From Spirochaetae bacterium HGW-Spirochaetae-2 (lineage in GTDB: Bacteria > Spirochaetota > Spirochaetia > Sphaerochaetales > Sphaerochaetaceae), in NCBI GenBank assembly GCA_002839355.1, contig PGXW01000013.1, positions 62,001-126,000 of the forward strand: DNA of 64,000 nucleotides, written 5' to 3'. Made by a program: the position numbers and the translations under genes. Shown here one piece after another: positions 813-21,425 of the stretch. Below the pieces are notes generated by a model. The model was given only the letters and a program-made list of their open reading frames with translations, ran no database searches and was not told the origin of the DNA. Each line of letters begins with the position of its first letter. Positions within the stretch are counted from its first letter, which is position 1.

Positions 813-2420
813 TTATTCGTGGTGAAATTCGTTCTGGTATTCCTTGGGAGTCTTTCCCACGGCCTTCTTGAAAATATAATTGAAATACGATGAGGAGTTA
901 TACCCCACATCGGCCGCAATGGCGGAAATTTTCATCTGATGGTTTTCCTGCAGGATTGTCTTGGCCTTGTCCAAACGCAGTTGGGTGATGTAATCGATAT
1001 AGGTCCTGCCATAGGCCCTCTTGCACAGTCTGCTGAAATATGCGGGAGTCAGTCCCAAATATTCGGATACTATCTCCAGCGAAAGCAATGGATCATCGAA
1101 ATGTGCCATGATATACGCCTTGGCCTTGTCCATGAGGTCGATCCCGGTATGGTCATCACGGGTCGCGAACTGACTGGTGATCGTCCTGCAGGCCCACGAT
1201 ATCTTGGTGAACAACTCTTCGATGCTCTTGAGATTGCTGTAGCGGTACAGTGTCATGAGATCCGGAAAGAACTTTCGGACCGGAATACCCAGCTCGTCAC
1301 CAGCCGAGAGAACGCAAATCAATACATTCCGCAGTAGTCCCTGTTTGTACTCGATACTCTTGTCTTCGTAGGAGATCTCCTTTTCCAGCGATTTCAAGTA
1401 TGCATCCAAGGGTGCCCGGTCACTCTGGGAAAGCAGATCGTAGAGTTGTTTGGTAGTGTCGTGGATCGGAAGCGGGATAGTGTTCGATTCGGAGCTGTCG
1501 GTTTTTTGGCGTACGTTGAATCCAGAGATCATCGAGAACAATGCATGGGTCTTGGCCTTGCGATATGAGAATGATAGGTCTCCCAAAGAATGGACAAGCT
1601 CACCGACTCCGACACCCAACAGGGAGAATTCAGACAGGGAATCCATGGCAAGCTTCAAATCCGCCATGAACCCGAGGGTGTTGAACGAGGGCTTGTCGGC
1701 AGACATGACGATAGTGATGTCGGTATAGAATATTTCATTGGGAAAGAAGAACAGGCTTTCCAGCTGCAACGCGTGTTTTTTCAGGTAGGGGTTGAGTACC
1801 TTTTTCAAGGTCACATACAGATTGTTGCTTTCAATGGGCGTCCGGATTTCGGAATAGAGGACAACAGGGACATGGGGAGAGTCTTTCCGCGTATACTCGT
1901 GGAGCTGCAGTCCCCGCTCTATATCTTCATCGGACAGGGTGCCGAACAACAGGTCCCTGAAGAAATCGTCCAATAGGGTTTGGCGATACTCGTCGTAAAA
2001 GGCCGAAAAGCGGTCGAAATCGTTTCTCAACAGCTGCTCTTCCTTGATGGATTCGATCAATCGCGCAAGTATGCCTTGCAACTCATCGATATTGACGGGT
2101 TTCAGTATATATTCCTTTACACCTAGTTGAATCGCCTGTTGTGCATAGGAAAAGTTGTTGTACCCGCTGATGATTATGATCTTGATGTCCGGATTCGTGC
2201 GGTTGACAGCCTTTATCAGTTCAAGGCCATCACCTCCGGACATCTGGATGTCTGTCAGCAGGATATCCGGGTTATGCGTTTGGATAGCAACGAGCGCTTC
2301 TTGTCCATTCTTCGCCAAGCCGACAACCTCGGCATCGAGCTTGTCCCAGGCTATCGATTCCGCAATGCCGTTTCGAATCAGTTTTTCATCTTCTGCAATA
2401 ACTACGGAATAAGTTCCCAT
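813..2420 (-). CDS. YesN-like response regulator (REC + AraC HTH)
   Basis: A 535-residue response regulator. Residues 1-120 are a receiver domain with the acidic pair near residue 10, the phosphoacceptor Asp57 in ILLTDIQM and Lys107 in YILKPVN. About 300 residues of poorly conserved linker follow, as is usual for YesN proteins. The last 100 residues are an AraC-type double helix-turn-helix, including YFSRLCKRAYG and VGYNSSSYFNYIFKK. It begins 3 bp after the histidine kinase stop and is its obvious partner. By analogy with YesM/YesN pairs it should switch on the divergent or downstream sugar genes; this is inference. Confidence 0.93.
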   Translation of the reverse strand: MGTYSVVIAEDEKLIRNGIAESIAWDKLDAEVVGLAKNGQEALVAIQTHNPDILLTDIQMSGGDGLELIKAVNRTNPDIKIIIISGYNNFSYAQQAIQLGVKEYILKPVNIDELQGILARLIESIKEEQLLRNDFDRFSAFYDEYRQTLLDDFFRDLLFGTLSDEDIERGLQLHEYTRKDSPHVPVVLYSEIRTPIESNNLYVTLKKVLNPYLKKHALQLESLFFFPNEIFYTDITIVMSADKPSFNTLGFMADLKLAMDSLSEFSLLGVGVGELVHSLGDLSFSYRKAKTHALFSMISGFNVRQKTDSSESNTIPLPIHDTTKQLYDLLSQSDRAPLDAYLKSLEKEISYEDKSIEYKQGLLRNVLICVLSAGDELGIPVRKFFPDLMTLYRYSNLKSIEELFTKISWACRTITSQFATRDDHTGIDLMDKAKAYIMAHFDDPLLSLEIVSEYLGLTPAYFSRLCKRAYGRTYIDYITQLRLDKAKTILQENHQMKISAIAADVGYNSSSYFNYIFKKAVGKTPKEYQNEFHHE

Positions 2421-2423
2421 GCT

Positions 2424-4115
2424 TTAAATCCTTGGTATATGGACAACCACAGTCGTCCCTTCTGAATTCGACGAGAAGTGCAACCCATAGTGTTGGCCGA
2501 AATACAGTTTAATCCGCTCATTCACATTTCGCAACCCTAGTCCAAAATCCGATTCGCTTCCCTCTTCGAGCAATTGATTGATCTCATCAATGCGATCCTG
2601 TGGAACTTGTGGACCCGAATTCGTGACATGTATACGTATATCCGTGCCGGACTCTTCCCCTACAATGGTGATTTTTTCCGATGTATCCGATTGCTGTACA
2701 CCATGGATGATTGCGTTTTCAACTAGCGGTTGCAGTATGAGCTTGAGAGTCTTGTTCTTGAGAATCGAATCGGGAATGTTGATTTCGTACACGAAGTCAT
2801 CGGCATAACGGACTTCCTGGATTATCAGATAGTTGCTGATGTGCTCTATCTCCTCTTCGATGGTGACCATGGTCCGGCCCCTGTTGAGACCAATACGCAA
2901 TAGTTTGGACAGGGAATACACCAGCCGGGTCACATCATCCATCTTTCCCTTTCGTGCCAGCCAAATAATCGAATCCAGTGTGTTGTACAGGAAATGTGGA
3001 TTGATCTGGGCTTCGAGTGTCTTCATTTCAGCGATACGGAGTTTCTCGTGTTCATCATGCAAATCCCGCAGCAGATTGTTGATCTGCGAGACCATGACGT
3101 TGAAGGTAGTTCCCAACAGGGCGACTTCGTCATCGCCGGATGTGTCCATGGTGACACGGAAATTTCCCGATTGCACGACTTCCATCAAGGATGCCAATTC
3201 GCGCAATTGAGCCGTTATCCGGTATGATATGGAACTGGAGGCGAACAATACGATGATAGCGATGACAGCAATGAGGATCAGTATGGGGGTAATCATGGAC
3301 AACACGGAGTTTTCGATGAGGGAAGGATGCAGATAACCGGTGAGTTCCCATCCCGCCAATGAAATATCCTTCGTGTATGAGAAGCTGTATTCCGAATTGT
3401 TTGTATCATTCGCCGATTGGGAGATAATCGTCTTGTCCGAACTGGTCAGTATGAAATGCCCGGTTTCTCCCATCCCTTTCCGGACGATCGTTGATAACGT
3501 CGAAACTTCGATATCGGTCAACAAAGCCCCAAGGATGTTTCCCGTGGATTTGTCCATAATCCGCAATCCCATGGTTATCAACGGTTGACCGATAGTATTG
3601 ACGGTAAATGAGCCCTCGTGCGGGTTGAACCAGACCGGACTGTCGCTGGCAATAATGCTTTGGTACCAATCGAAGTCTTTCCAATCCTGGTAAATGGGCG
3701 AGGAGAAGTTCGACTTGAATTGCATCCCGTTGGCTCCGATGATATAGAAGCCGAACAGGTGGTCGACATAGTTCTGCACAAACGATAGCTGATTGTCCAT
3801 CTCCAATTCCAGGGAATAGGCTTCCGCAATGGATTCGGGACGTGGATTCCTCAATACCGCTTGGATCTTCGGATCGTTCGTTATCCTCAAGGCATTTTTC
3901 AACGCATTGTCCAACAGATTTTCGATCTCTATGGCATTGCTGTCGACAATTGCGACCAGGACTGTCTGCAGGTGGTCCTTGATGATGTTGGTGGAAAGGT
4001 AGCTGAACGTAAATCCAAGCAACGCCACCATACTCAAGGTGATTGTCATGGTGAGGACGAATATCCTCTTGCCCAATGAATTCTTCTTAGGCGGAAACCA
4101 TTTAAAAACCTTCAT
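2424..4115 (-). CDS. YesM-like sensor histidine kinase
   Basis: A 563-residue membrane sensor. A transmembrane segment at about residues 17-40 and another at about 272-295 flank an extracytoplasmic Cache-like sensor domain. A HAMP linker follows, then the His_kinase domain of the LytS/YesM type with phosphoacceptor His374 in INPHFLYNTL. The ATPase has an N box (LVENAIIHG) and a G box (GLGLRNVNER). The start codon overlaps the end of the upstream binding-protein gene by 14 bp, so the two are probably translationally coupled. The order binding protein-kinase-regulator suggests that the lipoprotein presents sugar to this sensor. Confidence 0.93.
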   Translation of the reverse strand: MKVFKWFPPKKNSLGKRIFVLTMTITLSMVALLGFTFSYLSTNIIKDHLQTVLVAIVDSNAIEIENLLDNALKNALRITNDPKIQAVLRNPRPESIAEAYSLELEMDNQLSFVQNYVDHLFGFYIIGANGMQFKSNFSSPIYQDWKDFDWYQSIIASDSPVWFNPHEGSFTVNTIGQPLITMGLRIMDKSTGNILGALLTDIEVSTLSTIVRKGMGETGHFILTSSDKTIISQSANDTNNSEYSFSYTKDISLAGWELTGYLHPSLIENSVLSMITPILILIAVIAIIVLFASSSISYRITAQLRELASLMEVVQSGNFRVTMDTSGDDEVALLGTTFNVMVSQINNLLRDLHDEHEKLRIAEMKTLEAQINPHFLYNTLDSIIWLARKGKMDDVTRLVYSLSKLLRIGLNRGRTMVTIEEEIEHISNYLIIQEVRYADDFVYEINIPDSILKNKTLKLILQPLVENAIIHGVQQSDTSEKITIVGEESGTDIRIHVTNSGPQVPQDRIDEINQLLEEGSESDFGLGLRNVNERIKLYFGQHYGLHFSSNSEGTTVVVHIPRI

Positions 4116-5088
4116 CGAACAGCTCTATCGCATTTGAAGAATCGAACAGACGGTCTTCGATTATGATCTTTGGCGGTATCTCTTTGCCGAGAAGGTGGTC
4201 CGAGATCGTGTCGAACACCGTCTTGGCGAGCCGGGGAGTACATTCGATTGTCGCGCCGAGTTCTCCGGCGATTATGGATTTCAATGCATCCTTGCTTCCG
4301 TCGATACTTATGATCGTCACGTCGGTGTTCGGCCTGATATTTGCTGCCTTGAGTGCCTGTATCGCACCGATTGCCATTTCATCGTTATGCGCGTAGACCG
4401 CATTGAACTCCTTCCCAAAGGAGAGGATGATATCTTCCATCACATCCTGGCCTTTTATCCGTTCAAAATCGGCGTATCCGAAGGCCACGATTTCCATGCC
4501 ATCGATTGATCGGATGCCATCATGGAATCCGTTGGCACGATCGATTCCACACGAGGAACCCTCGTTTCCATGGAGTTCGACAATCTTTGCATTGTTCCCC
4601 ATGATATCGGCGAGCCAGTTGGCGGCACGTACTCCCTCTTCGTAGAAGTCGGAACCGATAAACGTCAGGAAATCGACTCCACCGGTTCCCGCGATTTCCC
4701 TGTCCAGCATGATCAGTGGAACCCCAGCCTCTTTGCAGATATCCACAATTTCCTGATATCCATCATACGTGAATGGAGTACAGACGATATATTGGGCACC
4801 TTGAGCGATAAAGTCCCTGATATCCTGTGTCTGTTTTGCAATGGAGCTGTCGGCATCCGCAACCAACAAGTTGATTCCCCGTTCGTCGGCTACCTGCCGC
4901 ATATCGTTGGTTTCGGCAACTCGCCAAGGATTTATATGGTTCATCTGGGAGAATCCCACGATCAGCCGTGTATCCGCAACCTGTGGCTTTACCGGCTCGG
5001 ATGTGCGTCGAGACTGCCCTTCTTTCACTGGAGAGCAACCGGAAAAGAGGATAACGACAAGGAGGGCGAGTGTAATAAATTTCTTCAT
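4102..5088 (-). CDS. Periplasmic sugar-binding lipoprotein (YtfQ/RbsB-like), first gene of sensor operon
   Basis: A 328-residue LacI/RbsB-fold solute-binding protein. The signal peptide ends in the lipobox LFSGC with acylated Cys18. It shares YtfQ-like landmarks with the divergent gene at 5247: GFSQMNHINPWR near residue 45, DFIAQGAQYIV, FIGSDF and VYAHNDEMAIGAIQA. No permease or ATPase follows; the next genes are a histidine kinase and a response regulator. It may therefore work as a ligand-presenting co-sensor, as ChvE-type proteins do, rather than as a transport component, or it may also serve the divergent transporter. Its family is clear; its role is inferred. Confidence 0.9.
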   Translation of the reverse strand: MKKFITLALLVVILFSGCSPVKEGQSRRTSEPVKPQVADTRLIVGFSQMNHINPWRVAETNDMRQVADERGINLLVADADSSIAKQTQDIRDFIAQGAQYIVCTPFTYDGYQEIVDICKEAGVPLIMLDREIAGTGGVDFLTFIGSDFYEEGVRAANWLADIMGNNAKIVELHGNEGSSCGIDRANGFHDGIRSIDGMEIVAFGYADFERIKGQDVMEDIILSFGKEFNAVYAHNDEMAIGAIQALKAANIRPNTDVTIISIDGSKDALKSIIAGELGATIECTPRLAKTVFDTISDHLLGKEIPPKIIIEDRLFDSSNAIELFDEGF

Positions 5089-5246: not shown

Positions 5247-6212
5247 ATGAAAAGGAACATCATGGTTCTTGTGATGGTTGCCCTGCTGGTGCTTTCCGCA
5301 GGAAGCATCTTTGGTGCTGGTAAAACCGAAGCGGCAGCCGATGGCCCGAAGGTAATCGGGTTCTCGCAATGTGACAGCCAACAGGCATGGAGATGGGCTG
5401 AAACCGAATCGGTGAAGGAAGAGGCCGCCAACCGTGGCTATGTACTCCAGTACAACGACGCACAATCCAGCCAAGCCAACCAGATCGCTGCAGTCCGCTC
5501 TTTCATCGCCCAGGGCGTGGATGGCATTCTGCTCGCTCCGCAGGTTACCACTGGTTTCGGTCCTGTGCTTCGTGAAGCGAAGGAAGCCGGAATCCCCGTC
5601 GTTCTGCTCGACCGAAAAGTCGATGAAAGCGAAGACCTGTTCGTAACCTTCATTGGTTCCGATTTCGTGTGGGAAGGTGAGCAAGTCGGTAAACTCGTAC
5701 TGGAAGACACCAAGGGTAAGGCGAATATCGTCGAGCTGCAGGGAACTCCCGGAGCCGACCCGGCGATCGAACGGAAAGCCGGTTTCGAGAAAGTCGTGAA
5801 GGCGAATCCCGGAATGAAGATTATCCTTTCCCAGACTGGCGATTTCAATAGGACCAAAGGTAAGGAAGTCATGGAAGCGTTCCTGAAGGCTGAAGGAAAG
5901 AACATCGATGTCGTGTATGCCCATAATGACGACATGGCAATCGGTGCTATCCAGGCTATCAAGGAATACGGCATGGATCCGGGCAAAGACATTCTCGTCT
6001 ACTCGATCGATGGTGTCAGGGACGGTTTCCAAGCCATGGTTGATGGTGATTTGAACGCGCTCGTGGAATGCACCCCGTTACTCGGACCCCAAGGTTTCGA
6101 TGCTCTCGAGGCAGCATGGCGCGGCGAATCTGTACCCAAGTGGGTAAAATCGGAAGACGGTATTTTCCGCATGGCCGATGCGGCAGCCCTTATCGGTGGA
6201 AGAAAGTTCTAG
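5247..6212 (+). CDS. ytfQ: YtfQ-like furanose ABC transporter substrate-binding protein
   Basis: A 321-residue periplasmic binding protein with an N-terminal signal segment (about residues 1-24) followed by GAGKTEAAADG. It closely resembles E. coli YtfQ, which binds galactofuranose: GFSQCDSQQAWRWAET, AVRSFIAQGVDGILLAP, VVLLDRKVDE, GDFNRTKGKEVMEAF and VYAHNDDMAIGAIQAIKE. AGGAGG lies 9 bp before the start. It is followed after 17 bp by the ATPase and then by two permeases in the same order as ytfQ-ytfR-ytfT-yjfF, which supports the family call. Binding of a furanose is likely; which sugar is not known. Confidence 0.9.
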   Translation: MKRNIMVLVMVALLVLSAGSIFGAGKTEAAADGPKVIGFSQCDSQQAWRWAETESVKEEAANRGYVLQYNDAQSSQANQIAAVRSFIAQGVDGILLAPQVTTGFGPVLREAKEAGIPVVLLDRKVDESEDLFVTFIGSDFVWEGEQVGKLVLEDTKGKANIVELQGTPGADPAIERKAGFEKVVKANPGMKIILSQTGDFNRTKGKEVMEAFLKAEGKNIDVVYAHNDDMAIGAIQAIKEYGMDPGKDILVYSIDGVRDGFQAMVDGDLNALVECTPLLGPQGFDALEAAWRGESVPKWVKSEDGIFRMADAAALIGGRKF

Positions 6213-6229: not shown

Positions 6230-7722
6230 ATGGGTGGAAAACTCCTAGAGGTTCACAACGTCTATAAGGTTTTCCCAGGTGTCACCGCTCTCGCAGATGT
6301 GGATTTCGCCCTCGAAAGGGGCGAAATCCACGGTTTAATGGGAGAGAACGGGGCTGGGAAGTCGACTCTGATCAAAGTCATCACCGGAGTATACCAGAAG
6401 GACGCCGGTACGATTGTGCTCGACGGTCAGGAAATACATCCGACCTCTCCTTTGCACGCCGAGGCATTGGGAATCAGTACGGTGTACCAAGAGGTCAACT
6501 TGTTGACCAATCTGTCGGTCGCCGAGAATCTCGCGATCGGCCGAAAACCCACCGGTACTGTTGGAATCGATTGGAAAACAATGAATCGGCGGGCCGCAGG
6601 GATCCTTGAGAAATTCGATATCGATATCGATGTCACCGAATTGCTGGGGAATTATTCGATCGCCATCCAGCAGATGGTTGCAATCGCCAGGGCTTTGGAA
6701 CTGGACTCGAAACTGCTGATTCTGGATGAACCTACATCGAGCCTCAATGCCGATGAGGTCGAGAAGCTCTTCAAGCAGATGCGTCGGTTGAAAGAACAAG
6801 GCCATGCGATAATTTTTGTGACCCACTTTCTTGATCAGGTATTTGAGATCACTGATCGGATCACCGTACTGCGCAACGGCAAATATGTCGGCGAGTATGC
6901 GACCCCGTCAATGACCAAATTGGACCTGGTGTCGAAGTTGATGGGGAAATCCCTCGATGATTTGAAGAACTTCGACAGTATCTCGAACCATGTGGAGACC
7001 GGTGACGATGCCAACCTGATCGATGTGAAGGGAATGGAAAAGACCAATTACATGAATCCTTTCGATCTGAAGGTACGCAAGGGAGATATTGTCGGGTTGG
7101 CAGGATTACTCGGTTCGGGTAGGACAGAAATCACCAACCTGCTGTTCGGCACGCAAAAACCGGAAGGGGGAGAACTCCATATCAAGGGAAAGCGGGTCAA
7201 CCTCAATTCCCCACGGAAGGCAATCGCCCATCATCTGGCCCTGAGTCCGGAGGACCGCAAGCAGGAAGGAATCATCTCAGGTTTGTCGGTGCGGGAAAAT
7301 ATCGTCCTTGCACTGCAAGTCAAGAAGGGATGGTTGCACAATATCAGTGTCCGCAAACAAAACGAACTGGCAGAGAAGTACATCGGAATGCTTTCCATCA
7401 AGACCTCCGGGGTGAACCAGCCGATCGAGACCCTCTCGGGCGGCAACCAACAGAAGGTGATCTTGGCCCGTTGGCTTGCCACCAATCCGGAACTCTTGAT
7501 TGTCGACGAACCGACACGTGGTATCGATGTCGGTGCAAAGATGGAAATAAGCAAGGTATGGGAATCGTCTTCGTATCATCGGAAATCGAAGAGGTTGTGC
7601 GCTGTTCAAACCGTGTATATATCCTTCAGAACCGCAATATCGTCGGAGAATTGCGGGGAGACGAAATCTCGGAACAGGAAATCATGGTCAGGATTGCGGC
7701 AAAAGGGGATAGAAACGTATGA
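6230..7722 (+). pseudogene. ytfR: YtfR-like sugar ABC transporter ATPase, frameshifted in the second ATPase domain
   Basis: Start ATG at 6230, after a GAGGAG ribosome site. The first ATPase domain is complete: Walker A GENGAGKST, signature-region IAIQQMVAIARA, Walker B LLILDEPTSS and switch His in FVTHF. The second reads normally through LSGGNQQKVILARW and IVDEPTRGIDVGAKMEI, where the frame is lost at about 7548-7550. Homologous sequence (QGMGIVFVSSEIEE to the end) continues in another frame to a TGA at 7722 that overlaps the next start codon. Compared with YtfR about eight residues plus one base are missing, which fits a 25-nt deletion. Unless read through or mis-sequenced, the product has a wrong C-terminus that runs on to 8239. 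Confidence 0.88.
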
Positions 7723-8768
7723 TGAAAGGACGACAAATACCGCGAATAGCATGGCCGTTGTTCGCCCTGGGCTTGATACTCTTGTTCAATCTGGTGTTCA
7801 CGGATTCATTCTTCGCCATTACGGTCAAGGATGGGCACTTGTTCGGTTCATTGATCGATATCTTGCGACGGAGTGCTCCCACGTTGATCATGGCAGTCGC
7901 GATGACCTATGTGATCGCGACGGGTGGGATCGACATATCCGTGGGATCGGTGCTCGCCATCTCGGGATCGATTGCTTCTCTGATGGTCTGGGGAGGAAAC
8001 ACCCAGTATCTCACCTCGGCTGGTTCCCAGTATTATGCTCCGATGCTCACGATTATTCTGATTCCGTTGGTCGCCTCCATCCTCTTGGGAGCATTCAACG
8101 GCGTCATGGTATCGTTTATCGGGTTGCAGCCGTTTATCGCAACGCTCATCCTCATGACCGCTGGAAGAGGACTCGCCCAACTGTTGACCGGGGGCAAGGT
8201 TCTCAATTTCAGGCATGCCGGATTCGAGTTTGTGGGTAGGGGATACCTGTTCGGGCTTCCTTTTCCGTTCCTGCTCGCCTTGGGGGTCATCGTGTTGGGG
8301 ACCGCCATTACCCGGCTGACTCCCATGGGGTTGTATATCCAAGCCGTAGGTGGCAATAGGAGTGCCAGCAACTTCTCAGGTGTGAATACCCGTCTCGTAT
8401 TGCTGTTCGTCTATGTCTTCAGTGGTTTTGCCGCCGGGTTGTCCGGCCTGGTCATGACAAGCGATATTACGGGGGCCGATGCCGGATTCATGGGATTGTA
8501 TATGGAGCTCGACGCAATTCTTGCAGTCGTCATCGGCGGGACCCCAATGGAGGGCGGCAAATACAATGTCGGCGGAACAGTGGTTGGGGTACTCATCATA
8601 CAGACCTTGACCACAACAATCCTGACAAAGGGTATTCCGACAGAATACACGCTCCTGGTGAAAGCTATCGTGGTGGTGGTCGTGCTTATCATCCAATCGA
8701 ACAAGATGCGGGAAGTGATGGGTAAACGACAAGGCAAGATGATACTCAAGGGGGGATCTGCAGTATGA
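7719..8768 (+). CDS. ytfT: YtfT-like furanose ABC transporter permease
   Basis: A 349-residue membrane protein of the BPD_transp_2 family with about eight to ten hydrophobic segments. Strong similarity to E. coli YtfT: GHLFGSLIDILRRSAP, YVIATGGIDISVGSV, QPFIATLILMTAGRG and LDAILAVVIGG. The first ATG overlaps the stop of the ATPase frame (ATGA), so translation was coupled to the intact ATPase reading frame. This supports the view that the upstream frameshift is recent or a sequencing error. Confidence 0.92.
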   Translation: MMKGRQIPRIAWPLFALGLILLFNLVFTDSFFAITVKDGHLFGSLIDILRRSAPTLIMAVAMTYVIATGGIDISVGSVLAISGSIASLMVWGGNTQYLTSAGSQYYAPMLTIILIPLVASILLGAFNGVMVSFIGLQPFIATLILMTAGRGLAQLLTGGKVLNFRHAGFEFVGRGYLFGLPFPFLLALGVIVLGTAITRLTPMGLYIQAVGGNRSASNFSGVNTRLVLLFVYVFSGFAAGLSGLVMTSDITGADAGFMGLYMELDAILAVVIGGTPMEGGKYNVGGTVVGVLIIQTLTTTILTKGIPTEYTLLVKAIVVVVVLIIQSNKMREVMGKRQGKMILKGGSAV

Positions 8769-9751
8769 GTCGCAAACGATTGTTCCAGATTTCCCGTCGC
8801 GACATGCCTCTGGTGGCTACGTTCATTGTCTTTTTGCTGTTGTATGCCTTCGGTGGTTTCAGTTACCGCAATTTCATGACTCCACGTGTATTTCTCAATT
8901 TGTTGACGGACAACGCAGTATTGGGGATCACTGCGGTCGGTATGACCTTCGTCATCATCTCGGGTGGAATCGACTTGTCAGTCGGGGCGGTGATCTCCAC
9001 CACGGCCATGATTGTCGCCGTGTTGACCAAAGCCGGCATGAACAACGTGTTGGTCATTGCCATTGCGTTGCTCTTTGGTACGACACTCGGGTTTCTTATG
9101 GGCGGCATGATCCAGTATTTCAAGACACCTCCGTTTATTGTTACCTTGGCGGGTATGTTCTTTGCCCGCGGATTGGGGTATGTGTTGAGTTTGGGATCGG
9201 TGCCGATCACGCATCCCTTCTATACCAATGCCTCGTCGATAGGAATAAAGATCGGGAATGGCAAACTCAGCATGCCCGCTATGGCTCTGTTGGCTATGAT
9301 CCTGATCGGATGGTTCATATCCCGGCGTACCCGCTTCGGAAGAAATGTTTTCGCTGTGGGGGGTAATGAACAGTCGGCCATACTCATGGGGCTTCCGGTT
9401 ACCCGGACCAAGATCGCCGTCTATACCTTCAGCGGTTTCTGCTCCGCGGTCGCAGGTTTCATCTACACCTTCTATACATTGTCCGGATATGGCTTGGCAG
9501 CCATGGGGTTGGAGATGGAGGCGATCGCTTCGGCGGTTATCGGCGGGACCTTGATGACCGGCGGCTACGGGACAATCCTGGGTACGCTGCTGGGCACGCT
9601 CATCCAAGGGTTGATCAAGTCCATCATAGCGTTCAACGGACAATTCAGTGTCTTCTGGATCAAGTTGTTTACCGGAGGCATGTTGCTGGGATTCATCCTA
9701 TTGCAAAAGATTTTTGTGTACGGGACCAAGTCCCGGAGGAAAAAGCGATGA
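8765..9751 (+). CDS. yjfF: YjfF-like furanose ABC transporter permease
   Basis: A 328-residue BPD_transp_2 permease. It matches E. coli YjfF in FLNLLTDNAVLGITAVGMT, FVIISGGIDLSVGAV, PPFIVTLAGMFFARG, VPITHPFY and RTRFGRNVFAVGGN. The ATG overlaps the preceding permease stop by 4 bp. With YtfT it would form the heterodimeric channel of the importer. Confidence 0.92.
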   Translation: MSRKRLFQISRRDMPLVATFIVFLLLYAFGGFSYRNFMTPRVFLNLLTDNAVLGITAVGMTFVIISGGIDLSVGAVISTTAMIVAVLTKAGMNNVLVIAIALLFGTTLGFLMGGMIQYFKTPPFIVTLAGMFFARGLGYVLSLGSVPITHPFYTNASSIGIKIGNGKLSMPAMALLAMILIGWFISRRTRFGRNVFAVGGNEQSAILMGLPVTRTKIAVYTFSGFCSAVAGFIYTFYTLSGYGLAAMGLEMEAIASAVIGGTLMTGGYGTILGTLLGTLIQGLIKSIIAFNGQFSVFWIKLFTGGMLLGFILLQKIFVYGTKSRRKKR

Positions 9752-10527
9752 ATGGAACCGTTTCATTCGATTTCTCCGAAACCTGCATGATTGTCACGGG
9801 TTCGTCCAAAGGCATAGGAAAGGATATTGCTTTCCAGTTGATGGCCAAAGGGGCTCGAGTCGGCATAACCGGTCGTGATACGGATGCCCTGCGATTGTTG
9901 CAGGAAGAAGCCGCTTCCAATGGCTACAGGTGTGACACCTACACTGTGGATCTCGCCCAAGTGGAATCAATCGGTCCCATGGTCAAGTATTTTGCCGAAT
10001 TGTTCGGCAGGATCGACGGCTTGGTCAATTGTGCGGGAGTCAATATATTGGAGCCAATGGGTTCTCTTTCGGCATCCGCTGTCAAGCGTGTTATGGATGT
10101 GAATCTCATAGCACCCATGCTGGTGACCAATGCGGTTGTCCCATACATGAAGGAACAGGGGTGTGGTAGTATCGTGGATATCGCGAGCCTTTCCAGTGTG
10201 ACCGCATTCGATCGGCATAGTGCCTACTGCGCCTCCAAAGAGGGACTGTTGGGGTATGTGAAAGTTGCCGCCATGGAATTGGGACCCTATGGAATCCGGA
10301 TCAATGCTGTCGGTCCGACGGTCGTGCTTACTGAAATGGGGAAGGCGGCTTGGGATTCCGATCCGGTGAAACGCAAGAGGATGGAGAGTTCCATTCCGCT
10401 CGGACGGTTCCTGGAATGTGACGATGTCTCTCCAGTGGTGATGTTCCTCCTTTCCGGTGCCGCATCGATGATAACGGGTGAATTCCTGCTGATCGACGGT
10501 GGTTACATGGCTGGAAAGGGGATTTGA
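9748..10527 (+). CDS. Short-chain dehydrogenase/reductase (sugar or polyol oxidoreductase)
   Basis: A 259-residue classical SDR. NAD(P)-binding motif TGSSKGIG at residues 17-24, NCAG near residue 92, and the catalytic Tyr160-x-x-x-Lys164 in YCASKEG, with the Ser in SSLSS about 14 residues earlier. The C-terminus GEFLLIDGGYMAGKGI is typical of gluconate or polyol dehydrogenases of this family. The start codon overlaps the YjfF stop by 4 bp, placing it in the transporter operon. It probably oxidises or reduces the imported sugar or the product of the glycyl radical enzyme. Confidence 0.88.
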   Translation: MNGTVSFDFSETCMIVTGSSKGIGKDIAFQLMAKGARVGITGRDTDALRLLQEEAASNGYRCDTYTVDLAQVESIGPMVKYFAELFGRIDGLVNCAGVNILEPMGSLSASAVKRVMDVNLIAPMLVTNAVVPYMKEQGCGSIVDIASLSSVTAFDRHSAYCASKEGLLGYVKVAAMELGPYGIRINAVGPTVVLTEMGKAAWDSDPVKRKRMESSIPLGRFLECDDVSPVVMFLLSGAASMITGEFLLIDGGYMAGKGI

Positions 10528-10543
10528 TAAGAAGGTGGATGGT

Positions 10544-11713
10544 GTGCGGATCAAAACGGGAAAACAGATTTCATCCTCTGCGATAATACTGGCTGTCGCC
10601 TCGTTGGCATTCTTCTTCATGGGTTTTTCCGATGTACTCAAGGGAAGTGCTGTTGCTGAGATGGTGGGTACCCTTGGAGTGGACTACGCCTTGGGAGGAT
10701 CGATTCTCGGCATCACCTATTTCGGCTTCTTCGCCGGTACCCTTTCATCGGTATCACTGCTTAAACGGTTCGCGGTTGCCCGCCTGTTGGTGGTCGCAGT
10801 CGCAACCACAGCCCTGGGAGTCATCCTATTTGGTTTTGCGAATCATGTTTCGGTAATCCTGTTCGCAACTTTTCTGACTGGAAGCGGGTGTGGTCTGATC
10901 GATGTGGCGGCAAATCTTACGGTGCGTTTGGCAGCCAAACCCGAACGGGTTGGACGGGAGCTCAACCGGCTCGCATTCTTCCATGGATTCGGGTCGATCG
11001 TCTCTCCACTGTTCGCTGCGATGGTGCTGAATCTATATGCCGATTGGCATATGATCTATAGGTTCGCCGCAATCCTGTTGGTAGCCGCTACATTCGCCGT
11101 CGCCAAGGGGGTTTCCACCAGTACGATATCGACCCGCGTGGCATACGACAAGGATGACCGGCTGGTATTGAATTTGCCGGTTGTCTTATTGGGAGGGTTT
11201 CTCTTTTGGTATATGACCTTGGAGACAGGGATCGCCGGATGGTTGGTTGCCTATGCCCGTCAAGCTGTCGGCTTGTCCGATCGGGTGGCCACTACGTATC
11301 TCTCCCTGTTCTTCATCATGCTTACCATAGGAAGATTCCTTGGCAGTTGGTACGTTGATAAGGTCGGGCTATTGAGAACCATCGTCATCCATGTGGTCGC
11401 ACTGCTGGCCATTACCTCAGTCTCGGCATTGTTTCCACGCGCCCATATACTGCTACCCTTGTCCGGATTCCTCATGGCACCGTTGTTTCCAACGACGGTA
11501 GCCCTCTTGGTGAATGAATTGGGAACCGTAGGATTGAGAGCGACAGGAATCTTCTTCTCGATCGCAGGGTTGGGTGGATTGTTCGGACCTTGGATCATCG
11601 GGATAGCCTCCCGTGCATTTTCCTTGCGGTTCGGATTCGGTTTGTTGGCGGTGTTTGCTGCATGCTTCCTCTGCATGACTTTGCTCTATCGGGTGAAGAG
11701 GAAGGTGGTCTGA
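10544..11713 (+). CDS. MFS transporter, FucP-like sugar permease
   Basis: A membrane protein of about 389 residues with twelve predicted hydrophobic segments. Landmarks of the fucose-permease branch of the major facilitator superfamily include MGFSDVLKG, GCGLIDVAANLTV and FFHGFGSIVSPLFAA. I place the start at GTG 10544, behind AAGGTGG; GTG 10535 is an alternative, and an ATG at 10499 lies inside the SDR gene. It is the second transport system in this operon and could import a related sugar or export a product. Confidence 0.8.
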   Translation: MRIKTGKQISSSAIILAVASLAFFFMGFSDVLKGSAVAEMVGTLGVDYALGGSILGITYFGFFAGTLSSVSLLKRFAVARLLVVAVATTALGVILFGFANHVSVILFATFLTGSGCGLIDVAANLTVRLAAKPERVGRELNRLAFFHGFGSIVSPLFAAMVLNLYADWHMIYRFAAILLVAATFAVAKGVSTSTISTRVAYDKDDRLVLNLPVVLLGGFLFWYMTLETGIAGWLVAYARQAVGLSDRVATTYLSLFFIMLTIGRFLGSWYVDKVGLLRTIVIHVVALLAITSVSALFPRAHILLPLSGFLMAPLFPTTVALLVNELGTVGLRATGIFFSIAGLGGLFGPWIIGIASRAFSLRFGFGLLAVFAACFLCMTLLYRVKRKVV

Positions 11714-11714
11714 C

Positions 11715-12617
11715 ATGATTGGTCGATATTCACACATACAGCGGTTCAGCACAAAGGATGGCCCAGGCATACGTACCACGGTATTTCTCAAGGGATGCAA
11801 TTTGCGGTGCCGGTGGTGCCATAATCCCGAGACCATTCCCTATGCGAGATTATTGCATTACTCGGAAAGTGCTTGTGTGCATTGTGGAGCATGTGCCCGC
11901 GTGTGCCCTACAGGAGCCACCACGATGTACCAGGGGCACAGGAAGTTCGATTTCCATTCGTGTACAGCTTGTGGACTTTGCGTCCCGGTGTGCATGCAGG
12001 GTGCATTGGCGATAACCGGTACCGATATAGGTGATTCCGACTTGTTCGATCTTCTTATGCGTGATGCCGACTATTACCGGAATTCCGGGGGGGGTGTCAC
12101 ATTTTCCGGTGGAGAGCCTTTGTTGCAAGCTGAATTTGTCCGCGTTGCCGCCGGTAGATTGCATAGCGAGGGTATTGCGGTTGCATTGGATACCGCCTTC
12201 AACCTCGAATGGACTGTCATTGCTCCCGTATTGCCCGAAATAGATTTGGTCCTGCTGGATATCAAGAGTATGGATCGCGAGACCCATTACGATTGTACGG
12301 GAGTTTATCCCGATTTGATCTGGGAGAATATCGGGCGGTTACGCACTATGGACAAGCAGGTGCTGGTGAGGATGCCCCTCATTGCCGGAATCAACGATTC
12401 CGACCGGGAAATAGCGGATGCGATAGCGTTTCTTTCCGGTTGGGATTCCCTGCTGGGGGTGGAGTTGTTGGCTTATCATGATATGGGCCTTGAAAAGGCC
12501 ACTTCGTACCATGGGGCGATAGGAGAACAGGAAGCGTTCCTTGCACCAGATAAAAATGCCATGGAAACTATTGCGCAACGCTTCAGGGCAAACGCTATTG
12601 CTGTAATCGGATACTAG
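11715..12617 (+). CDS. Glycyl-radical enzyme activating enzyme (radical SAM)
   Basis: A 300-residue PflA-family activase. The radical SAM cluster is held by Cys28, Cys32 and Cys35 in GCNLRCRWC. An inserted ferredoxin domain with two [4Fe-4S] sites follows (CVHCGACARVC and CTACGLCVPVC), as in activases of dehydratase-type glycyl radical enzymes and unlike the short PflA of pyruvate formate-lyase. The SAM-binding GGE appears as FSGGEPLLQ. It begins 1 bp after the MFS stop and ends 12 bp before the glycyl radical enzyme, its expected substrate. Confidence 0.95.
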   Translation: MIGRYSHIQRFSTKDGPGIRTTVFLKGCNLRCRWCHNPETIPYARLLHYSESACVHCGACARVCPTGATTMYQGHRKFDFHSCTACGLCVPVCMQGALAITGTDIGDSDLFDLLMRDADYYRNSGGGVTFSGGEPLLQAEFVRVAAGRLHSEGIAVALDTAFNLEWTVIAPVLPEIDLVLLDIKSMDRETHYDCTGVYPDLIWENIGRLRTMDKQVLVRMPLIAGINDSDREIADAIAFLSGWDSLLGVELLAYHDMGLEKATSYHGAIGEQEAFLAPDKNAMETIAQRFRANAIAVIGY

Positions 12618-12629
12618 CGGAGGTATACT

Positions 12630-14966
12630 ATGATTCCGAAACATGTCCAGAAATCAATTGAGAAATGGTTTGACAAAAGCGATGAGGCAACCTTCTACGA
12701 GCGGATTGTCCTACAAGAGGAGGCTGTGGAAAAATATGCTGACGAACCGTATGCGGTTCGGTTCGCCCATATCCTCGAACATATTCTTGCCAACATGACG
12801 GTTATCGTCGATGAAGGCGAACGGATAGTGGGCTCGGTGCTTGAAATAATTCCTACTGCGGAGCAACGGGAGTATGCCGAAAGCTTGAGCCTGAAATGGT
12901 GGGGGCCCCTGGTTTCCGAAGAGGAACGTCAGCAACAGGTGAACTTCTATTTTTCCCCAGGTTGGGTCAAACGGCGAAACCCGGTGTTCTTTTCCCTCGG
13001 ACACCTTGCATACGATTGGGAAACGATTGTCACCAAAGGCTTGGGGTGGTATGCGAACCGGGTAGCGGATTTGCTCGCAAGTGGAGAATTCGACGATGAC
13101 CCCGAGAAGATGCAGTTCCTGCAAGGAGCCCAGATCGCCTATGATGCGCATTCGGCATTCATTGCCCGATACGCGAGGTATGCGGCCGAAGCGGCTCGGA
13201 TGGCAGGGAATCTCCAGGAACGGAATCGCTTGGAGACAATTTCAGAAGTGTGCTCCCATATCGCAACAGGAAGTGCCAGGGGATTGCGTGATGCATTGCA
13301 ATTGATGTGGATGGTCGTGTTGGTCTCCCAGAAGACCGCCGGTTGCGGAGTCTTCAATTTTTCCCGCATGGACCAGTATCTGCTACCCCTGTTTGCCAAG
13401 GATATCGAAGCGGGAACACTCACCGAGCAGGATGCGTTGGAACTGATCGTCGAGTTTTATAACAAGAATAACGAAATCATGTTCCCTACCGACCACATGT
13501 CGCAAGAAAACGATTCGGTCATCAAGAATCTTGAAGTCTCGTACGATGACCCCAACTACCTTGTTGTCGCAGGCAAGCTGGCGAATGGAACTTCCGGTGT
13601 GAACAGGCTCTCGTTTCTCCTGGTACAAGCCGCAAAGTTGCTTCGACTCAAGAATCCGTTCATTGTGGTCAGGTGGCATGACGGTATCGATTCCGCTTTC
13701 TGGCAAGAGACAGTCGATGCCATGCGGATGAATGCCACAGTCGTCATATACAACGATGAGACCATGATTCCTGCCCTCAAGGAGTTCGGTATCGAAGAGC
13801 AGGATGTCTATTCCTATGGATTCTACGGTTGCAACGATCCCAACATCCCCGCACTGGAGGGAGGGTTGCGACAACTGTGGATGAACTTGGTATGGCCATA
13901 TGAATTGGCTCTCAATGGTGGGCGTCCTTTCGGTGATCCGAGCCGCAGTGTCGATCTCAACTTCAGCCTGCGTGATAGGATCCAGATCGGATTGATGAGC
14001 GGTCCGTATGCGGGCAAGAAGTTTGATGCCGAAGAACCCTGTCTGTCCATGGAAGCCTTCATTGCCCGGTATCGACAGCAGATGTCCTTTCTGCTCGACC
14101 AGTATCGGCGGGTGATGGAACAGGATTACGAAAAGGAGTCCCAATGGAACAAAGGTCGCATCCGGATCGAGGACCTCTTCCTCAAGGGGACGATTGAATC
14201 GGCCACGACATGGCTCATCGGTGGTACCAAATACCATAAGGTAACCCTGCAGGGTAGTGGTCTCGCGACCGCCGTCGATTCTCTGGCAGCGATAGATATC
14301 GCGGTATTCAAGGAAAAGCGGTATACATTTGATGAACTGAGGCAGGCAATCAAGGCGAATTTCGTTGGATACGACGAGATGCGTACCTACCTGCTCAAGT
14401 TGCCCAAATTCGGGAACGACCTGGATAGTGTGGACGAATATGCAAAGATTGTCGTTGATGCCTTTTGTGATGCCGTCGTTGATATGAATCGGAAGAGGGA
14501 AGGTCTGTATACCTATATGCCGGCGATTTCGACGGATAGGGATTTCACAACCATGGGAGAGGCACTTGCGGCGAGTGCCGACGGTCGATTGGCGGGAGCT
14601 CCGATTTCAGAGAACCAGTCACCATATATCGGGTCGGACAAGTCTGGTATGACCGCACTGCTGAATTCGGTCACCCGGGTGCCGTTCAACCGGATTACCG
14701 GTGGCCCCTTGAACCTCAGGTTGCACCCGTTGACCGTTGAAGGCCCGGAAGGGCTGGCCAAATTGGCCTCTCTTCTCGAAGTATATCTGCGCAAGGGTGG
14801 TATGCAGGCGCAGATGAACGTCGTAGGCAAGGCCGAGCTAATCGAGGCACAGAAAAATCCTGAAAAATATAAGAATCTTTGTGTACGGGTCGTCGGTTAT
14901 GCCGCATACTTTGTGCAGATGGGAAAGAAAGCCCAAGACGAGCTGATCCAAAGGACGGAGTTGTAA
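12630..14966 (+). CDS. Glycyl radical enzyme of unassigned reaction (Cys-Asn-Asp active site)
   Basis: A 778-residue member of the pyruvate formate-lyase superfamily. The glycyl radical Gly756 sits in RVVGYAAYF near the C-terminus. The catalytic cysteine is Cys401 in FYGCNDPN. In characterised dehydratases, lyases and decarboxylases this motif is usually Cys-Val-Glu, where Glu is the base, and in pyruvate formate-lyase it is Cys-Cys; here it is Cys-Asn-Asp. So it is not a pyruvate formate-lyase and is unlikely to be a glycerol, choline or propanediol enzyme. It sits behind a furanose transporter, an SDR and an activase. I infer radical cleavage or dehydration of a sugar derivative; the substrate is unknown. 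Confidence 0.9.
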   Translation: MIPKHVQKSIEKWFDKSDEATFYERIVLQEEAVEKYADEPYAVRFAHILEHILANMTVIVDEGERIVGSVLEIIPTAEQREYAESLSLKWWGPLVSEEERQQQVNFYFSPGWVKRRNPVFFSLGHLAYDWETIVTKGLGWYANRVADLLASGEFDDDPEKMQFLQGAQIAYDAHSAFIARYARYAAEAARMAGNLQERNRLETISEVCSHIATGSARGLRDALQLMWMVVLVSQKTAGCGVFNFSRMDQYLLPLFAKDIEAGTLTEQDALELIVEFYNKNNEIMFPTDHMSQENDSVIKNLEVSYDDPNYLVVAGKLANGTSGVNRLSFLLVQAAKLLRLKNPFIVVRWHDGIDSAFWQETVDAMRMNATVVIYNDETMIPALKEFGIEEQDVYSYGFYGCNDPNIPALEGGLRQLWMNLVWPYELALNGGRPFGDPSRSVDLNFSLRDRIQIGLMSGPYAGKKFDAEEPCLSMEAFIARYRQQMSFLLDQYRRVMEQDYEKESQWNKGRIRIEDLFLKGTIESATTWLIGGTKYHKVTLQGSGLATAVDSLAAIDIAVFKEKRYTFDELRQAIKANFVGYDEMRTYLLKLPKFGNDLDSVDEYAKIVVDAFCDAVVDMNRKREGLYTYMPAISTDRDFTTMGEALAASADGRLAGAPISENQSPYIGSDKSGMTALLNSVTRVPFNRITGGPLNLRLHPLTVEGPEGLAKLASLLEVYLRKGGMQAQMNVVGKAELIEAQKNPEKYKNLCVRVVGYAAYFVQMGKKAQDELIQRTEL

Positions 14967-18768: not shown

Positions 18769-18800
18769 TCGTCCTGGAGAAATCTAACGCATGTACAGCT

Positions 18801-18865: not shown

Positions 18866-19894
18866 ATGAAAACCAAGAACTCAAGAAGATTGGAAAACCT
18901 CTTTGCCTTGCGATCGAAGGTGTCGGCTTCGATTGTGGGGAAGTTGTACCACTCGATACCGATATCCGGGCAAATCATATCCTTGGGAATTGTCGCATTG
19001 ATCTTTTCGGTAGGTACCAACGGACAGTTCCTGCACATATCCAATATCATGACGGTATTGGGGCTTTCAGCTATTCCCATGATTCTCTGCCTTGCGGTCC
19101 ATCAAGTGATTATCCTTGGTGCCATGGACCTCTCGTTGGAAGGGATCGTGGCTATCACAGCCGTTTCGGCGGGATTGCTGTTGAAAAATTCGGTTACAGC
19201 CAACGATGTCGGGCTTTGGATCATTCCCATTGTGATGCTGATCGGTGGATTGGCCGGTCTGGTGAACGGCTTGTTGAACACTAAGCTCAGGATGCCGAGT
19301 TTCATCAGTACCTTGGGTATGAGTTGGACCCTGTTCGGTGTGGCAATCATGATCAGCAAAGGTTCGAGCATTCCGTTGCGTGATTTACGTTTTCAGAAGG
19401 TCATCATTTCGGAGTTCCTGGGAATTCCGACAGTATTCATTTTGGCAATACTCCTTGGATTGGTGTTGTACATCATGCAAAACAAGACCAAGCTCGGAAA
19501 ACATATGTATGCTATCGGCGGCAATGAAATCCTGGCCAAGCAAGCCGGAGTCAAGGTGGACCGGATCAAGATTTCGATTTTTGGGCTGACCGGTATGATA
19601 TACGGTCTTGCCGGATTGTTGCTGGTCGCCCGCCTCAACAGCTCTGCCGCACGCTATGGGAACAACTTGTTGTTTCCGGCTATGACTGCGGTAGCTGTCG
19701 GAGGGGTCTCCCTATCCGGTGGTGTCGGAGGAGCCCTGAATGCTGTGATCGGTACGATCATTGTCGTTGCTTTGAACAATGGATTGGTCCTTATGCAGAT
19801 CAATCCCTATATGCAGAGCGCCGTGAATGGTATCGTACTGATTTCCGCTGTCGCCTTGACCATCGACCGAAATAAAATCGGTATCATCAAATAG
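18866..19894 (+). CDS. CUT2 sugar ABC transporter permease (first)
   Basis: A 342-residue BPD_transp_2 permease. I start it at ATG 18866 (MKTKNSRR), since the upstream in-frame ATG at 18791 precedes the 18801-18829 hairpin and has no ribosome site. Family landmarks: ILGAMDLSLEGIVAI (the G-x-DLS-x-G motif), MPSFISTLGMSW, GKHMYAIGGNEILAK and AVAVGGVSLSGG. It pairs with the permease at 21440. Confidence 0.9.
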   Translation: MKTKNSRRLENLFALRSKVSASIVGKLYHSIPISGQIISLGIVALIFSVGTNGQFLHISNIMTVLGLSAIPMILCLAVHQVIILGAMDLSLEGIVAITAVSAGLLLKNSVTANDVGLWIIPIVMLIGGLAGLVNGLLNTKLRMPSFISTLGMSWTLFGVAIMISKGSSIPLRDLRFQKVIISEFLGIPTVFILAILLGLVLYIMQNKTKLGKHMYAIGGNEILAKQAGVKVDRIKISIFGLTGMIYGLAGLLLVARLNSSAARYGNNLLFPAMTAVAVGGVSLSGGVGGALNAVIGTIIVVALNNGLVLMQINPYMQSAVNGIVLISAVALTIDRNKIGIIK

Positions 19895-19904
19895 TGAGGC
19901 CCAG

Positions 19905-21425
19905 ATGGAAAAGAAAAAGATTATCGAATTCAAGGGCATTCGCAAGGTCTTTCCCGGTGTGGTTGCATTGAAAGGCTTTGATCTTGCCATCTACGAAAAG
20001 GAAATCTTGGGACTGGTCGGTGAGAATGGTGCGGGCAAATCGACACTCATGAAAATAATGACAGGCAATTACCAACCGGATGGAGGTCAATTCCTTTTGC
20101 GTGGAAAACCGATAGTCCTTGGTGGTTCGATGGAAGCGATTGAGCATGGGATCGGTATGGTGTTCCAGGAAGGATCGATCCTTCCCAACCTTACAGTCAC
20201 AGAAAACCTGTTTTTATGCCATGAGAAGGAATTCTCCAAGGGTTGGTTCATTTCAGAATCCGCCATGGTCGCCGAGGCCCGGAGGGCTTTGGAAGAGAAT
20301 GGTTTGGATATCAATCCAACGACCCTCTGTGGAAATCTGAGTCCCGCACAACGGCAAATGGTCGAGATTACCAGACTGCTCTGGTTGTCGCGATTGTATC
20401 GCCATGAAAATCCTGTATTGATTCTTGACGAGCCGACAACCGTGTTGTTGGAAAAGGAAATCAAGACCCTGTTTGAAATCCTCAACAGGATAAAGGAGTA
20501 TGCGACTGTCGTACTCATTTCCCACCGGCTGGAGGAGATTATCGAGAACAGCGACAGGATCGTGGTCCTCAAGGATGGCGACTATGTGACCGAGATGCTC
20601 CGTGAAAAGGCGGATATATTCAAGATTGAACAACTCATGGTCGGTCGTGATATGGTCGAAGGTTATTATCGTCGCAATGAGCAAATCGATCCAACCGACT
20701 CGGTGGTGTTGGAAGTCAAGGATTTGGCGATTGAATCCATTTTGGAACCGATATCCTTCACCTTGCACAAAGGTGAGATACTGGCATTGGTCGGATTGAT
20801 CGGATCAGGAAAAGAAGAACTGGTAAAATGTCTTGGTGGCAGCATGCAAGCTACCCATGGCAGCATCTATCGGAACGGCAAGAAAATTTCAATCAAACAG
20901 CCGAAACATGCGATTGCGCATGCGATAGGATATATTCCCATCGACCGTCGTGTGGAGGGCTTGGCTACCGATCTTGATATCGCCGACAACATCAACATGC
21001 TGGTCTACAAGAACCTGAAGGTGCGGGGCTTCATCGACAAGAAAAAGGAACGGGACAATGCAACCCACTGGATGGGTGTGGTCAAGGTAAAGGCGACCAG
21101 CCATCGTATGAAGTGTGGCAATCTGAGCGGAGGAAACCAACAGAAGGTGGTCCTTGGGAAATGGCTCTCAGCCGATGCGGAGATCCTGATAGTCGATCAT
21201 CCGACCCGAGGTATTGATGTCGGTGCGAAGGATGAGATCTACCACCATATTCGCCAACTCGCAAAACAGGGGAAAAGTATGATCATCATGTGCGATACGC
21301 TCGAAGAGGATATCGGACTGTGCAATCGCATGCTGATCCTGAAGGATGGAAAGAAAGTCAACGAGGTTTCTTGTCCGCCGGATGCAAAACCGGCTCCTAC
21401 CGACATTATCGAATCAATTGTGTAA
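19905..21425 (+). CDS. CUT2 sugar ABC transporter ATPase (RbsA/XylG-like) with atypical second domain
   Basis: A 506-residue double ATPase. Domain 1 has Walker A GENGAGKST, signature LSPAQRQMVEI, Walker B LILDEPTTV and switch His in LISHRLEE; a short extra segment, SRLYRHENP, sits before Walker B. Domain 2 has the expected degenerate P-loop (GLIGSGKEE) and LSGGNQQKV, but Walker B reads IVDHPTRGID, with His in place of the catalytic Glu, and the switch region is MCDTLEED. Domain 1 therefore probably does the hydrolysis. It begins 10 bp after the permease stop. Confidence 0.92.
   Translation: MEKKKIIEFKGIRKVFPGVVALKGFDLAIYEKEILGLVGENGAGKSTLMKIMTGNYQPDGGQFLLRGKPIVLGGSMEAIEHGIGMVFQEGSILPNLTVTENLFLCHEKEFSKGWFISESAMVAEARRALEENGLDINPTTLCGNLSPAQRQMVEITRLLWLSRLYRHENPVLILDEPTTVLLEKEIKTLFEILNRIKEYATVVLISHRLEEIIENSDRIVVLKDGDYVTEMLREKADIFKIEQLMVGRDMVEGYYRRNEQIDPTDSVVLEVKDLAIESILEPISFTLHKGEILALVGLIGSGKEELVKCLGGSMQATHGSIYRNGKKISIKQPKHAIAHAIGYIPIDRRVEGLATDLDIADNINMLVYKNLKVRGFIDKKKERDNATHWMGVVKVKATSHRMKCGNLSGGNQQKVVLGKWLSADAEILIVDHPTRGIDVGAKDEIYHHIRQLAKQGKSMIIMCDTLEEDIGLCNRMLILKDGKKVNEVSCPPDAKPAPTDIIESIV

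Follow-up and report, generated by a model that had tools for sequence, protein, structure and literature searches.

The importer locus and its gene cassette

The window analysed here comprises 64,000 nucleotides (contig C52, positions 62001-126000) of a draft spirochaete genome of 3.6 Mb, which consists of 86 contigs and has an estimated contamination of 3.22%. Four genes are located between positions 5247 and 9751, and their best NCBIfam matches in a profile search are YtfQ, YtfR, YtfT and YjfF. Together with the genes that follow, they form the cassette listed below. The sister genome mentioned in the list is the nearest of the genomes compared.

5247-6212, forward strand: ytfQ-like gene (gafA) of a furanose-binding protein, intact (NF041827.1, E = 1.9e-109; dN/dS 0.031)
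6230-7549, forward strand: ytfR-like gene (gafB), residues 1-440 ahead of the apparent deletion, covering NBD1 and NBD2 as far as the D-loop (NCBIfam NF041861.1, E = 4.8e-187; 3 amino acid differences from the sister in 439 codons)
7548-7550, forward strand: junction, 25 nt missing in comparison to the sister genome (sister alignment)
7552-7722, forward strand: remainder of ytfR, encoding the second half of NBD2 in a shifted frame, with a stop codon that overlaps the ytfT start (NF041861.1 positions 442-492; tblastn 93% to sister residues 448-505)
6230-8239, forward strand: predicted mistranslated product of 669 aa, final 229 codons off the original frame (open frame)
7719-8768, forward strand: ytfT-like permease gene, intact (NF041862.1, E = 7.7e-93; ribosome-binding-like sequence AAGGGGA just upstream)
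8765-9751, forward strand: yjfF-like permease gene, intact (NF008630.0, E = 6.6e-116, above the curated cut-off)
9748-10527, forward strand: short-chain dehydrogenase (SDR) of the cassette (profile matches, cassette comparison)
10499-11713, forward strand: MFS permease of the cassette (PF07690.21; elsewhere kept beside a continuous ytfR)
11715-12617, forward strand: glycyl radical enzyme activase (TIGR02494.1, above the cut-off)
12630-14966, forward strand: glycyl radical enzyme of the cassette (PF02901.20, PF01228.26)

On the reverse strand and facing the importer, positions 813-5088 encode a binding protein, a Cache-domain histidine kinase and a response regulator, the latter named from its sequence. 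This set resembles a three-part sugar sensor and is kept together with the cassette at three other loci (L029, L031 and L127).

A passage in PMC10191376 proposes the name gafABCD for the ytfQRT-yjfF operon of E. coli. As in this galacto- and arabinofuranose ABC importer, a binding protein, an ATPase and a pair of permeases from these families adjoin each other in the order Q-R-T-YjfF, which is also found in L029, L031 and L127, and each of the four proteins has the corresponding NCBIfam model as its best match. In contrast to the E. coli system, ytfR is split by a frameshift, so that the two ABC ATPase domains of YtfR/GafB (NF041861) are not encoded in one frame but are interrupted after residue 440, and the cassette additionally comprises the SDR, the MFS permease and the glycyl radical enzyme with its activase. 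Among the models of sugar-importer ATPases, YtfR is the best match of the first ytfR piece (622 bits, compared to 452 bits for AraG); the curated cut-off of 850 bits was set for the whole protein. Three of the four proteins (Q, R and T) score below their curated equivalog cut-offs, so that galacto- or arabinofuranose is only a candidate for the transported sugar. In a search of solved structures with the first frame, the best 60 of 108 matches were ABC proteins of a general kind, and no close relative among the ATPases of sugar importers was in this set.

The frame break in ytfR

The first frame of ytfR starts with the ATG at 6230 and matches positions 1-433 of the 492 positions of the YtfR profile, while positions 442-492 are matched by a second frame on the same strand (ORF 7330-7722). 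Homology in the first frame ends at I440 (codon 7547-7549) and resumes in the other frame near 7552. Alignment with the sister genome reveals one clean gap of exactly 25 nt, that is eight codons plus one base, at 7548/7549. The sequence-only reading had placed a break just past GAKMEI and had attributed it to a loss of precisely this size; the break is confirmed and the count turned out to be exact. The overlap it described between the end of the resumed frame and the next gene is also present, with the TGA at 7720-7722 overlapping the ytfT ATG at 7719.

The gap lies in NBD2, after VDEPTRGIDVGAK, which we take to be the Walker B motif and D-loop, and before VFVSSE, presumably the following strand and switch region. 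Beyond the junction the shifted first frame encounters no nearby stop codon and stays open until 8239, passing the ytfT start in another frame. In a post hoc test, ytfT was shuffled synonymously 5000 times and 3.7% of the shuffles reached this length, which makes it only mildly unusual; we take it as a product of chance and not as a hidden gene. A programmed frameshift can be dismissed, as there is no slippery heptamer near the break (the only one of this type in 7300-7725 is located at 7702, far beyond it) and the relatives compared (best 80 of 179) are continuous. The same applies to tandem-repeat slippage or phase variation, since no repeats bridge the gap.

The assembly contains no second near-identical copy of ytfR; the other matches within the genome are at most 87% identical and cover short stretches of DNA. 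Seven scored loci (L002-L008) were considered as second copies and rejected, because their proteins are only 36-39% identical and thus ordinary paralogs. The window itself encodes a second fused sugar-importer ATPase (19905-21425, forward strand) that is 36% identical to YtfR and has VDHPTRG as its second Walker B motif, where YtfR has VDEPTRG.

Comparison with related genomes

The sister genome (G001, presumably Spirochaetae bacterium HGW-Spirochaetae-4, PGXU01000015.1) belongs to the same genus and aligns collinearly with the initial 18.7 kb of the window (92.6% DNA identity). Its ytfR is a single, unbroken open frame of 505 aa. The collinear alignment contains one gap of 25 nt, and all remaining gaps comprise just 1-2 nt. 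In total, 179 relatives were confirmed among the genome contigs and the best 80 of them, including the sister, were kept. All of these 80 (best match each) run through the deleted segment without gap or stop. Because the sister represents a separate lineage with an intact ytfR, the intact form is ancestral. The orthologs are intact in the sister lineages and the disabling change is found here alone, as in a recent pseudogene.

Between the contig studied and that of the sister, 43,076 aligned columns contain 15 clustered gap events, eight of which have a net length of zero and seven of which change the frame. Of these seven, none but the one in ytfR is placed within a conserved gene. At three others (window-relative positions -1757, -15378 and 27886) the sister lacks any stop-to-stop frame of 150 aa or more, a further one (16362) falls into the interval from the end of one annotated frame (16319) to the start of another (16467), and those at 18797 and 18849 are located ahead of the likely start of the next gene at 18866, as predicted from the sequence.

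Selection and age of the break

Before the break, ytfR differs from its sister ortholog by 3 nonsynonymous and 37 synonymous changes in 439 codons (dN/dS 0.023). After the break, there are 3 nonsynonymous and 8 synonymous changes in the 56 codons of the resumed frame (dN/dS 0.095). The two parts do not differ significantly (Fisher p = 0.106), and we did not use this comparison for dating; the residues after the break are close to the variable C-terminal end and do not date the event. For all 14 stretches measured, dN/dS is below 0.11. Synonymous divergence among these stretches ranges from a minimum in ytfR (6230-7546, forward strand; dS 0.13) to the largest values in the MFS gene (0.44) and a ROK gene (0.45). 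Codon bias or recombination are candidate causes of this spread.

If ytfR had been unconstrained over a large share of the branch (about half of the observed dS), tens of nonsynonymous changes would be expected, and six are seen on both branches taken together. The strong constraint on ytfR therefore lasted for nearly all of the divergence, and the break would be very recent. The small number of nonsynonymous changes supports the earlier suggestion of recent damage. We infer that the deletion is either very recent or absent from the organism altogether.

Deletion or assembly artefact

In our view, the organism, or at least the dominant strain in the assembly, probably carries a very recent deletion of 25 nt in ytfR. 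The placement of the gap is ambiguous by just 1 nt, which corresponds to a microhomology of 1 nt at the junction. Direct repeats of at least 5 nt are present nearby but do not bridge the gap, and ytfR is free of homopolymers of at least 6 nt. This combination makes a real deletion more likely than an assembly slip and renders small-repeat slippage, homopolymer errors and the collapse of a repeat in the assembly graph unlikely. A junction that lacks shared k-mers should normally require reads carrying it and can hardly be made by a k-mer assembler. The lack of a bridging repeat would fit a simple deletion of the end-joining type or by replication slip and not a switchable locus.

It is distinctly less likely, albeit to be taken seriously, that the gene is intact and that 25 nt were lost at a contig join or during the consensus call or gap closing. 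The draft state and the estimated contamination of the genome are in line with such an artefact, as are the lack of any further decay in the operon, the clear purifying selection on the rest of ytfR and the cassette and the universal presence of the intact form in the relatives seen (best 80 of 179); a faulty joining of contig ends is a possible route. Against it, besides the missing homopolymers and bridging repeats, the assembly does not appear to be error-prone in this region, since the 43 kb compared hold no other frame-changing gap in a conserved gene. Moreover, a clean loss of 25 nt with 1 nt of microhomology would be atypical of assemblers. The sequence-only reading regarded an uninterrupted frame in sister genomes as a sign of an assembly error. 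The frame is indeed uninterrupted there, yet the sister is a different lineage and its intact gene does not imply an error in the present assembly.

Probable consequences for the ATPase and the importer

Assuming a real deletion, the fused two-domain ATPase of what would be a furanose importer of the YtfQRT-YjfF (GafABCD) type is cut just past the Walker B motif and D-loop. About eight residues of the following helix would be removed and the rest of NBD2 replaced by unrelated sequence. NBD2 would then be unable to fold and the ATPase would be lost, leaving the importer inactive. The proposal that the importer is disabled thus gains support as the probable outcome, because the frame change cuts NBD2. 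All other genes of the cassette appear undamaged. Their expression may continue, since the shifted frame passes the start of ytfT without a stop codon and a separate ribosome-binding-like sequence precedes ytfT.

It is very unlikely that the shifted product partly works, either through the canonical ATP site of NBD1 together with the NBD2 signature or through a -1 frame change during translation, by which some protein would be made that is full-length but for about eight residues. A passage in PMC11466899 describes one degenerate ATP site, located in NBD2, for the fused sugar importers RbsA and NupO of Bacillus subtilis. The NBD2 Walker A of the present protein (GLLGSGRTE) lacks the lysine too, and its NBD2 signature LSGGNQQ precedes the break, which lends this explanation some plausibility. 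However, the break takes away the core strand of NBD2 as well as its switch region, so that unfolding is to be expected, the nearest slippery-type heptamer is far past the break, and the broken form occurs in none of the best 80 of 179 relatives.

The suggestion that the MFS permease took over the substrate of the importer, which is being given up for this reason, fares slightly worse still. It is prompted by the location of the MFS gene, which follows after a few genes in the same gene run, but in all four other genomes in which both genes are visible, the sister and three more distant ones, the MFS gene is found beside a continuous ytfR. In these genomes (G001, L029; G058, L031; G140, L127; G119, L125) the MFS, activase and glycyl radical enzyme genes adjoin a ytfR that is continuous through the segment; in G119 the contig end cuts the start of ytfR and no SDR passed the filter. 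The MFS gene is therefore an old neighbor and was not gained as compensation, and we reject it as a replacement. Its dN/dS between window and sister (0.10) is near that of the SDR, activase and glycyl radical enzyme genes (0.09-0.10), and the other importer genes are still constrained. Elsewhere, the contig of G132 (L126) stops before the importer becomes visible, L034 has just the four importer genes in the available stretch, L032 (G002) has just a ytfR with 52% identity, and L039 and L041 have relatives of ytfQ, ytfR and yjfF at 41-52%, with no further cassette gene passing the filter there.

The most improbable of these scenarios is that the 669-aa fusion, with NBD1 and the NBD2 signature retained, serves as a stable regulator or leaky ATPase in this strain, which would leave the permeases and the binding protein as a complex that resembles a sensor and does not transport.

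Glycyl radical enzyme encoded in the cassette

The glycyl radical enzyme (12630-14966, forward strand) was matched in only six of the 297 genomes searched in the class (E ≤ 1e-100), and its cassette comprises the furanose importer, the MFS permease and usually the SDR. Its active-site stretch reads GCNDP in 6/6 loci holding the stretch, whereas solved diol dehydratase, glycerol dehydratase and choline lyase have GCVEP at this place (3/3 alignments), the glutamate of which we take to be catalytic. It scores far below the cut-off of every NCBIfam equivalog that it matches. From these sequence features, the enzyme possibly represents a new subfamily. This rare enzyme is more unusual than the break in ytfR and is the better lead.

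Significance

The break in ytfR is a frameshift confined to one lineage; it affects a member of a known family of sugar-importer ATPases and belongs to a very common type of event. Like ordinary recent bacterial pseudogenes caused by a small indel, it shows a single out-of-frame indel in a constrained gene, and we found nothing that distinguishes it from them. It touches no open mechanistic question. For annotation, it should be considered that the open frame of 669 aa is a mistranslation that is overlapped by ytfT. Should the organism truly carry the deletion, then a furanose importer that is strongly constrained in the relatives was lost only very recently in a single strain of this genus of spirochaetes, and this loss would be informative about the recent sugar supply of the strain.
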